A stretch of 64,000 nucleotides of DNA from Microbacteriaceae bacterium (GTDB lineage: Bacteria; Actinomycetota; Actinomycetes; Actinomycetales; Microbacteriaceae). Every line of letters starts with the position of its first letter. Position 1 is the stretch's first letter. The position numbers and the translations under genes were made by a program. Positions 1 through 15,013 of the stretch are shown in pieces. The stretch covers positions 1 to 64,000 of the forward strand of contig JAHBSP010000007.1 in assembly GCA_019639055.1 (NCBI GenBank), given 5' to 3'. Below the pieces are notes generated by a model. That model was not told the origin of the DNA, made no database searches, and worked only from the letters and a program-made list of their open reading frames with translations.

Positions 1-1179
1 CGTCGTCGACGTAACAACAGTGATGACTTAGATTTCGAAATCAGCGATGACGATGTGCTACTTCCTATCGCTGGAATTTTAGACGTCCTAGACAACTACG
101 GATTCGTGCGCACCACCGGGTACCTATCAGGTAATGCAGACGTTTATGTTTCACTCGGGCAGGTTCGCCGTTACGGACTCCGTAAGGGTGATGCCATCGT
201 CGGTGCTATTAGACAGCCACGTGAGGGCGAAAATCAGCGACAGAAATACAACGCAATCGTAAAGATTGACTCTGTTAACGGTAAGCCACTTGCTGAAGCA
301 TTGGAGCGTCCAGAGTTTGCAAGGCTTACCCCGATATATCCAAATGAGCGTCTGCGTTTAGAAAATGGTTCAGCAGATCTAATCGGTCGCGCAATCGACA
401 TCGCCGCCCCGATTGGTAAGGGTCAGCGTGCACTGCTGGTTTCAGAACCACGCACCAACCGTGGAGGAGCGCTTAAGAGCATCGCCCAGAGCGTTTCAGA
501 AAACAATCCAGAAGTGCACTTAATGTACCTAGCAGTTAATGAGCGCCCAGAGGAAGTTACCGAACTTCAACGGGTAATCCGCGGTGAAGTCGTGGCTTCG
601 CCCTTTGACCATCCAGCAGAAGATCATGCTGCAGTTTCCGAACTCGCAATCGAACGTGCGAAGCGCATGGTTGAACTTGGGAACGATGTGGTCTTGTTGG
701 TTGACTCCCTCACCGGCCTAGCCCGCGCATACAACCAGATTGCGCCAACTTCAGGTCGCTTCCTAGTTGAGGGTGTCGACACTGCGACAGTATTCCCAAG
801 TAAGCGTTTCTTCGGCGCTGCTCGCAATGTCGAAAATGGTGGATCACTCACCATAATCGCTAGCGTGCTCACCGGTTACGGCTCAGTAGCTGAGGAAGCA
901 ATTCTTGACGAACTTCGTGTGGCGGCCAACTCGGAAATTAAGCTTTCTAAGAAGCTAGCCGATGCATACCTGCCTGTGCAGATAGACATTCACTCAAGTG
1001 GCACTAAACACGCTGAACAGCTAACCAATGCAGACGAACTTGCCGCAAGTTTCAAACTTCGCGGGTTAGTTGAGGGTGCGGATGTTCTTGAAAGTGCGAA
1101 AAACCTAGTTCAGAAGCTGGAGTCGACCAGCACCAATACCGAGTTGCTATTCTCGGCGCAGCGTGCTGCAACTAACTAA
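1..1179 (+). CDS. rho: Transcription termination factor Rho, 5'-truncated by window edge, ATPase site degenerate
   Basis: The reading frame is open from base 1, so the gene starts upstream. The visible part begins with an Arg/Asp-rich stretch like the actinobacterial Rho N-terminal insertion. The primary RNA-binding fold ([19 protein letters not shown]) and the motor fold ([39 protein letters not shown]) follow. The catalytic apparatus is altered. Walker A, normally PPKAGKT, reads EPRTNRGG (bases 445-468). DERPEE is NERPEE. DSITRL is DSLTGL (Gly at 715-717). The position of E. coli R353 is Tyr (967-969), and the arginine-finger GTR is GTK (1006-1008). The locus before prfA is the usual actinobacterial rho locus. 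I infer an RNA-binding Rho with poor or no ATPase activity. Whether an intact rho exists elsewhere cannot be seen here. Confidence 0.93.
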
Positions 1180-2258
1180 TGTTTGATTCCGTAAAAGCAC
1201 TACTTAGCGAGCTTGCCGAAGTTGAGGAGGCTCTAGCCGACCCTGCGGTTCACGCTGATCCGGCTCGGAGTAAAAAGCTGAACCGGCGTTACTCCGAACT
1301 AGCTCAAATCGCAGCAGCAGATAAGGCACTCCTAGCAGCAAACGATGACTACGCCGCCGCTAAAGAATTAGCTAAAGAAGACGATGCTTTTGCCGAAGAG
1401 CTACCAGCGTTAGAAGAAGCACAAAGACAAGCTCAGGAGCGACTTCGCAGGCTATTGATTCCTCGTGACCCGGATGATGGCCGTGACGTAATCATGGAAA
1501 TTAAGGGCGGTGAAGGTGGCGCTGAGAGCGCACTCTTCGCGGCAGACCTTATGAGAATGTATAGCCACTACGCTGACTCGAAGGGCTGGAAGGTAGAACT
1601 CCTCGATAAGAACGAGAGTGACCTTGGCGGCTTCAAGGATGTGCAAATCGCCATCAAGTCCAATGCGACCGATCCGTCTCAGGGTGTCTGGGCGCATCTG
1701 AAATATGAGGGCGGTGTGCACCGCGTGCAGCGCGTGCCTGCAACCGAATCTCAGGGGCGCATCCACACATCCACCACCGGTGTGCTGGTTTTCCCAGAAG
1801 TTGATGAACCTGAAGAGGTAGAGATCAACCCCAACGATCTTAAGATCGACGTTTTCCGTTCCAGTGGTCCGGGTGGCCAGAGCGTTAACACCACCGACTC
1901 TGCTGTGCGTATCACCCACCTTCCAACCGGAATTGTGGTTTCTATGCAGAACGAGAAGTCACAGATTCAAAACCGTGAAGCGGGCATGCGTGTGCTTCGG
2001 GCCAGGCTCCTCGCCAAGCAGCAAGAAGAGCTTGATGCAGCTGCAAGTGATGCGCGTAAGAGCCAAATTCGTGGCATGGATCGTTCCGAGCGTATCCGTA
2101 CCTACAATTTCCCAGAGAACCGTATCGCGGACCATCGCACCGGCTACAAGGCATACAACCTTGACCAGGTGATGAACGGGGCACTTGATCCGGTGATTGA
2201 GTCGTGCATCCACTTCGATGAAGAGGCAAGACTCGCTCATATTGGCGATGGAAACTAA
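1179..2258 (+). CDS. prfA: Peptide chain release factor 1
   Basis: Class I release factor that reads UAA/UAG in the ribosomal A site and triggers peptidyl-tRNA hydrolysis. The 359-residue length is normal for RF1. The catalytic GGQ loop is present ([14 protein letters not shown]), as is the P-x-T codon-recognition region ([12 protein letters not shown]). The start ATG overlaps the rho stop as TAATG, so translation is coupled to rho. It is followed by prmC, which methylates this protein's GGQ glutamine; the two reading frames overlap by 11 bases. Confidence 0.97.
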
Positions 2259-11028: not shown

Positions 11029-12673
11029 ATGGCAGAACTAAAAATTAGCCCCGATGAGATCCGTTCGGCTCTCAAGGACTTTGCAAAGAGCTACCAGCCA
11101 GCAAAGACCAGCAAGACCGAGGTCGGCTATGTTGTAGACGCATCCGACGGTATCGCTCACGTTGAGGGGCTACCGAGTGCGATGGCAAACGAACTTCTTC
11201 GTTTCCAGGATGGCACTTTAGGGCTTGCGCTAAACCTTGACGAAGCTGAAATCGGTGTGGTTATCCTCGGTGAAGTCCAGTGGCATCGAGGCGAGTCCAA
11301 AGAGGTTTTACCGCACCGGAGACGTTTTGTCTGTGCCAGTGGGTGAAGGATACCTCGGCCGAGTTGTTGACCCACTAGGTAACCCAATCGATGGCCTTGG
11401 CGACATTAAGGATATTGAGGGTCGCCGTGCTCTCGAACTTCAGGCACCGGGCGTTATGCAGCGTAAGAGTGTGCATGAGCCACTACAGACCGGTATCAAG
11501 GCAATCGACGCCATGATTCCTGTCGGTCGCGGTCAGCGCCAGCTGATTATTGGTGACCGCCAGACCGGTAAGACCGCTATCGCTATCGACACCATCATCA
11601 ACCAGAAAGCTAACTGGGATTCTGGTGACGTCAACAAGCAGGTTCGCTGCATCTACGTAGCTATCGGTCAGAAGGGTTCCACAATCGCTTCAGTAAAGGG
11701 TGCGCTTGAAGAAGCCGGCGCTATGGAATACACCACCATCGTGGCATCGCCAGCATCAGACCCTGCAGGTTTCAAGTACCTTGCTCCATACACCGGTAGC
11801 GCTATTGGTCAGCACTGGATGTATGAGGGTAAGCACGTGCTTATCATCTTCGATGACCTCTCCAAGCAGGCTGAAGCATACCGTGCGGTATCTCTACTAC
11901 TTCGCCGTCCACCGGGCCGTGAAGCATACCCTGGAGACGTTTTCTACTTACACTCACGCCTTCTTGAAAGATGTGCAAAGCTTTCCGATGAACTAGGTGC
12001 AGGTTCTATGACCGGTCTACCAATCATCGAAACTAAGGCAAACGACGTTTCTGCCTACATTCCAACCAACGTGATTTCTATCACCGACGGTCAGATATTC
12101 CTCCAGTCAGACCTCTTCAACGCTAACCAGCGCCCAGCGGTAGACGTAGGTATTTCCGTATCTCGTGTTGGTGGTGACGCACAGCAGAAGCACATCAAGA
12201 AGGTTTCCGGTACTTTGAAGCTTGAACTAGCCCAGTACCGTTCCCTACAGGCATTCGCGATGTTCGCATCCGACCTGGATGCTGTTTCTCGCCGTCAGCT
12301 AGAACGAGGTGCTCGCCTAACTGAGCTACTCAAGCAGCCACAGTTCTCACCATTCCCAGCAGAGAAGCAAGTTATTTCTATCTGGGCTGGTACCAACGGC
12401 AAGCTTGACGATGTTCCTGTTGAAGACATCCTCCGTTTTGAGGCTGAACTTCACGACTACATTGCCCGCAACACCAAGATTTTCGAAACCCTCATTCAGC
12501 GTGGAGATCTGAAGGAAGACACCATCGCAGAGATAGAGCAGGCAGTTACCGAATTCAAGAAGCAGTTCCAGACTGGTGACGGATCTTCACTAACCGATGT
12601 CGGTGTCGAGGAATTCGACGCGATGGCGGAAGAAGACGTGCAGCAGGAAAAGATTGTGAAGGGTCGTCGCTAA
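11029..12673 (+). pseudogene. atpA: ATP synthase F1 subunit alpha, reading frame broken near 11270-11310
   Basis: The N-terminal beta-barrel runs in frame from ATG 11029 ([18 protein letters not shown] to VVILGE) and would stop at 11346. The rest of alpha, from [11 protein letters not shown] through the P-loop [12 protein letters not shown] to the normal C-terminus at 12673, is in the +1 frame. Between them family-like fragments alternate: frame 0 LGE, +1 SGIE, frame 0 GESKEV, +1 YRTGDVL. That suggests several clustered indels with a net +1, or local sequence error. The second frame has no convincing start of its own. Everything else in the gene and operon is intact, and alpha is essential for ATP synthase, so I favour assembly/sequencing error but cannot exclude real decay or frameshifting. 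Confidence 0.85.
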
Positions 12674-12676
12674 CAT

Positions 12677-15013
<2,337 letters not shown>

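Follow-up and report, generated by a model that had tools for sequence, protein, structure and literature searches.

The question raised by this locus is whether a rho gene that stands in its usual place, and whose ATPase part has lost catalytic residues, still encodes a motor and, if not, what the cell has kept. Rho has been treated as one indivisible machine with near-universal catalytic residues, and many bacteria depend on it for viability. We analyzed the rho gene at the start of a 64,000-nucleotide stretch of DNA from a Microbacteriaceae bacterium with a small genome (the whole stretch is called the window), together with the rest of the genome and the Rho proteins of relatives. A preliminary description of the window had proposed an ATPase-dead Rho that survives as an RNA-binding or structural factor. 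That proposal is the best-supported reading of our results, given the preserved RNA cleft, an inverted pattern of evolutionary rates, and the recurrence of similar proteins in other genera.

Identity of the gene at the rho locus

The gene, its neighbor, and its RNA-binding domain are located as follows.

1-1179, forward strand: rho, the 3' 392 codons plus the stop codon (1177-1179), with the 5' end outside the contig; recognized by its open frame (frame 1, open throughout), TIGR00767 and NF006886
58-285, forward strand: OB-fold primary RNA-binding domain (Rho_RNA_bind), from PF07497 (89.9 bits) and the residue table
1179-2258, forward strand: prfA (release factor 1), the canonical neighbor, whose start codon overlaps the rho stop codon

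The contig (C15) begins at window base 1, which leaves the start codon of rho and the part for its N-terminal domain outside the sequence. The usual upstream neighbor, thrB, ends 46-70 bases from the edge of another contig (C5). With thrB at that edge and prfA directly after rho, the break falls inside the N-terminal part of rho, in a canonical thrB–rho–prfA locus split over the two contigs. With the N-terminus missing from the query, the protein scored 443 bits against TIGR00767 (curated cutoff 509.45) and 412 bits against NF006886 (cutoff 315). The domain order of Rho is present, with Rho_RNA_bind followed by ATP-synt_ab (PF00006, 66.4 bits); the RNA-binding and nucleotide-binding domains of an intact relative (G084) scored 90.8 and 92.8 bits. 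The protein also resembles the short-form Rho of the paralog_Rho2 family (NF041509), which is Rho-like, with a score of 398.8 bits against a cutoff of 628; unlike a second copy of that kind, the eroded protein here is the sole Rho.

The preliminary description had named an intact rho elsewhere as the finding that would make this gene a decaying duplicate. A TIGR00767 profile search of the whole genome, which is 99% complete, found no second rho. Weak matches to the same profile at window positions 11495-11587 and 13968-14735 are F1-ATPase-like genes and not copies of rho. The gene is this genome's one genuine rho and an ortholog by descent.

A contig break inside the gene could be a sign of an artefact, in which sequencing error, a contaminant contig, or an intact copy elsewhere accounts for the unusual protein. 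We consider this exceedingly improbable. Approximately 50 substitutions fall at invariant sites while the frame remains open and the GC content by codon position remains coding-like, rho is single, and thrB lies at the edge of the other contig, as the canonical order predicts. In addition, relatives show the same erosion, among them G338, whose complete genome is a single contig, and G081, on its main contig.

Residues replaced and residues kept

We aligned the protein to the Rho proteins of E. coli and M. tuberculosis and of 25 intact relatives, and we use E. coli numbering throughout. The following features of the ATPase part, all on the forward strand, were placed from the alignment or, for the last two, from the residue table.

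445-468: former Walker A motif, EPRTNRGG in place of PPKAGKT
538-555: NERPEE segment, with D210N; E211 and R212 kept
703-720: Walker B, DSLTGL, with D265 kept and R269G
748-780: Q-loop (secondary RNA site), VEG, with Val at 286 and G287E; a low-confidence loop in the AlphaFold2 model
871-891: R-loop, TGYGSVA in place of VETGSKM, with K326V
916-930: RVAAN in place of KGTGN, including K336R
967-969: Tyr at the R353 position (R353Y)
1006-1008: Lys at the arginine-finger R366 position (R366K), in GTK

All of the residue changes in the preliminary description (EPRTNRGG, NERPEE, DSLTGL, the Tyr at R353, GTK at R366, and the loss of KGTGN) were real. PPKAGKT occupies the Walker A position in 25 of 25 intact relatives; here the changes are P179E, K181R, A182T, G183N, K184R, and T185G, converting GKT to NRG. 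The Walker lysine and threonine and the arginine finger are lost, as that description had said, although the lysine and threonine should be numbered K184 and T185 rather than K181 and T182. Position 286 of the Q-loop is Ser in intact relatives and Thr in E. coli; M. tuberculosis has Thr at the K326 position, where this Rho has Val. A further change, K352A, lies beside R353Y. The claim that other ATPase residues had been lost was correct in part: D210, R269, R353, and the Q- and R-loops are changed, but the catalytic Glu (E211), the Arg valve (R212), and the Walker B Asp (D265) are retained. From the aligned residues, the catalytic center is not wholly erased. The loop that binds phosphate, the arginines that act in trans, and both the Q- and R-loops have been replaced, so that the protein has very likely lost the ability to hydrolyze ATP and to translocate RNA.

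The retained E211, R212, and D265 could be taken to mean that the protein still uses nucleotide slowly, with arginine standing in for the Walker lysine. The lysine-to-arginine change recurs (in this genome, in genera g16 and g82, and in genomes G610, G566, and G569) and could keep nucleotide binding. However, this change is also the one that comes most easily when constraint is relaxed, and the protein is in addition altered at T185, G183, R353, the arginine finger (R366), and both RNA loops. We regard continued ATPase activity as very improbable.

In the OB fold, the RNA-cleft positions Y62, F64, R66, D78, Y80, E108, Y110, and K115 are all retained, and the only two changes at invariant OB sites, A63G and K87R, are both to the E. 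coli residue. Such preservation of the OB fold points to continued binding of RNA. The AlphaFold2 model has a pLDDT of 87.6 and is nearest, among solved structures, to M. tuberculosis Rho (TM 0.88 by query, 0.95 by target), in a comparison in which the homologue alignment pulls the model toward the parental fold. With the Rhos of M. tuberculosis and E. coli (PDB 7oqh and 3ice), the protein shares orthology, the locus order of the family, the OB and RecA-like domains, the modeled fold, and the RNA-cleft residues. It differs from them in Walker A, the arginine finger, R353, and the Q- and R-loop residues, and in its TIGR00767 score (443 against 509).

Rates of change and recurrence among relatives

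Sites invariant in the 25 intact Rhos number 28 in the OB fold, 112 in the ATPase part, and 36 in the C-terminal part. This Rho differs at 2, 30, and 20 of them, respectively (Fisher's test, OB fold versus the rest, p = 0.003). Intact genomes that were left out singly mostly had 0-2 differences, the exceptions being the outgroup G027, with 5 differences in the OB fold, and G075, with 13 in the ATPase part. The Rho of G075 (L227, genus g76) scores above the family cutoff yet has these 13 differences, and it may represent early erosion.

Branch lengths, estimated on a fixed RpoB/RpoC topology and expressed relative to RpoB/RpoC, were 1.2 in this Rho versus 0.77 in intact Rhos for the OB fold, 1.6 versus 0.20 for the ATPase part, and 4.3 versus 0.56 for the C-terminal part. 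The ratio of ATPase to OB rates was 1.33 versus 0.26 in intact Rhos, 5.9-fold higher (bootstrap 2.9-9.7). The ATPase part has changed approximately 8-fold faster than in intact Rhos and the OB fold at a near-normal, somewhat accelerated rate, with selection on this rho being read from one long branch (genus g1 is represented by one genome) and from other genera. In a neutral simulation at 0.2 substitutions per site, 6.4 stops were expected in the rho frame, and 0 of 2000 frames stayed open. The preliminary description had held that this is not random decay and that the frame and RNA-binding domain are intact, and the counts at invariant sites and the open frame agree with it. Judged by the open frame, the kept RNA cleft, and the inverted rate pattern, the erosion of this rho is not simple decay.

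A rho gene is present in 393 of 400 genomes of the family. The low-scoring Rhos, which we aligned for residue comparison, fall in a few genera, and in six genera the only rho encodes a protein with a heavily damaged ATPase. The Walker lysine is missing from g1 (to which this genome belongs), g6, g16, g82, and most of g15; g19 and the G014/G306 branch of g15 have kept it and have lost other residues of the catalytic site and the channel. Rho is partly eroded in g45 and g13. At all 24 family loci with an eroded or partly eroded Rho that we checked, prfA adjoins rho, and there is a single rho per genome. The eroded relatives keep a long, arginine-rich N-terminal extension. Erosion is graded across genera, and the g82 and g19 Rhos are truncated at the C-terminus. 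Among the eroded Rhos, L116 (G018) and L147, L148, and L150-L152 (g82) have a shortened C-terminus without the arginine-finger region.

Parsimony on the RpoB/RpoC tree gives five losses of the Walker lysine. AU tests did not reject grouping this genome with g82 (p = 0.345) or with g16 (p = 0.638), so the safe count is three to five apparently independent losses. Within g15, the P-loop lysine (as GKS) is present in two species (G014 and G306; L117 and L134) and lost in seven (L135 and L137-L142), which makes at least one of the losses recent. All nine g15 Rhos are already changed at other catalytic residues and may thus record the order in which residues were lost.

In g82 and g15 pairs, dN was 0.009-0.124 for the OB fold and 0.028-0.292 for the ATPase part, and the OB value was lower in every pair; for the OB fold, omega was 0.02-0.11 in the g82 pairs and in most of those from g15. 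Intact pairs had the reverse order, with ATPase dN below OB dN in four of four. OB dN was also below ATPase dN in g6, where values were near saturation, and the order was the same in g45 and g13. This inversion of dN is the strongest sign that RNA binding, and not the motor, is kept. The label of Luna-type that the preliminary description gave the lineage was not confirmed, and placement by RpoB/RpoC is uncertain.

Among 216 genomes from the wider phylum, eroded Walker A motifs or channel loops were also found in G610, G566, G452, G466, G569, and the f55 group. Nine Rhos from other families of the Actinomycetota (L308 and L310-L317, in G610, G566, G452, G569, G466, G509, G529, G559, and G614) have an eroded Walker A motif, a deleted Q-loop, or both, with a recognizable OB fold; those of the f55 group are only about 450 amino acids long. 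Stronger constraint on the OB fold than on the ATPase part was not seen in the class-distant eroded f55 Rhos. A Rho match is absent from 10 of the 216 genomes. Several genomes of families f34 and f59 at 97% or greater completeness are among those with no match, and full loss of rho also occurs in the phylum.

These observations bear on the possibility that the gene is vestigial, that is, that Rho has become dispensable and the gene is being lost, motor first, with no present function. A C-terminal part changing 7-8 times faster than in intact Rhos would fit this idea, as would the graded erosion with C-terminal truncation and the genomes in the phylum that have no rho match. The 392-codon open frame, set against the stops expected under neutrality, argues the other way, as do the low OB omega values and the presence of an eroded rho in every sampled genome of g6, g15, and g82. 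We judge a vestigial gene to be quite unlikely.

A probable motor-less Rho and its possible function

We favor the interpretation, with a probability of roughly 0.7, that rho has been converted here to a gene for a non-motor RNA-binding protein and retained at its canonical locus. In the path that we envisage, the changes in the loop that binds phosphate, in the arginines that act in trans, and in the channel loops that grip and move RNA would have cost the protein its motor. The primary RNA site in the OB fold has persisted, as have the frame and the fold as a whole, the OB fold being the most constrained part in the related eroded genera. Selection may then keep binding of nascent or free RNA by the OB fold, perhaps helped by the arginine-rich N-terminal extension of the relatives, with the RecA-like half staying as a scaffold. 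The downstream effect could be RNA protection, condensates, or passive docking on RNA polymerase.

A different possibility is that the protein still acts on transcription without hydrolysis, docking on RNA polymerase through its N-terminal part, sensing RNA with the OB fold, and inactivating or slowing the complex as a roadblock. The N-terminal domain of E. coli Rho holds the contacts to RNA polymerase, and allosteric destabilization is a current model (PMC8828861); NusG is retained here with a normal score, and the conserved half of the protein is the N-terminal half. However, a proposal of motor-independent release by M. tuberculosis Rho was later argued against, and a hydrolysis-competent site is required for that Rho to disrupt transcription complexes (PMC4499133). 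We consider a motor-independent terminator unlikely.

The preliminary description had also suggested that the organism relies on strong intrinsic terminators in place of Rho. Canonical terminators were not enriched at convergent gene ends and, if anything, were rarer (2 of 21 pairs, versus 5 of 11 and 8 of 19 in intact-Rho relatives of similar GC), in a crude test with small numbers that used a crude gene caller and samples of approximately 200-260 kb from eight genomes. Hairpin z-scores likewise showed no enrichment of intrinsic terminators. With no such enrichment, the idea of terminator replacement is unsupported. In the sample of this genome (L228-L237 and the window), the gaps of convergent pairs were unusually short (median 39 bases), and terminators were fewer than in G010 and G073. 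Loss of coding purine bias, which has been seen in rho-less Bacilli (PMC13323073), was not found here; the value was 0.513, versus 0.487-0.511 in intact relatives.

If the motor is gone, this organism probably shares the absence of ATP-driven Rho termination with rho-less bacteria (Cyanobacteria, Mollicutes, and some Bacilli; PMC13289151 and PMC13323073 for two of these). It differs from them in that the gene is kept, the frame is intact, and the RNA-binding half is conserved. The long N-terminal extension of the eroded relatives, and RNA binding outside the channel, are features of the atypical Rhos with extra disordered domains of M. tuberculosis, Bacteroides thetaiotaomicron, and Clostridium botulinum (PMC8828861, PMC13269538, PMC4703818), but those proteins keep the motor. 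In the literature searched, of which coverage was incomplete, we found no paper on an ATPase-eroded sole Rho.

The recurrence of motor loss in relatives suggests conversion of Rho to an RNA-binding protein that no longer has a motor. We give about even odds to a broader view, in which Rho has repeatedly been converted in the Actinomycetota from an essential ATP-driven terminator to a class of pseudo-ATPase RNA-binding proteins with a role of their own, kept by selection at the rho locus in cells with no other functional Rho. An RNA-binding half under strong selection in the absence of the motor would separate the two functions of Rho by a natural experiment. Such lineages would make it possible to test for a motor-free role of Rho and to ask what keeps antisense and runaway transcription in check when the motor is missing. 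For these organisms, the annotation of rho as present in genome surveys would not equate to Rho-dependent termination or to sensitivity to the Rho inhibitor bicyclomycin.
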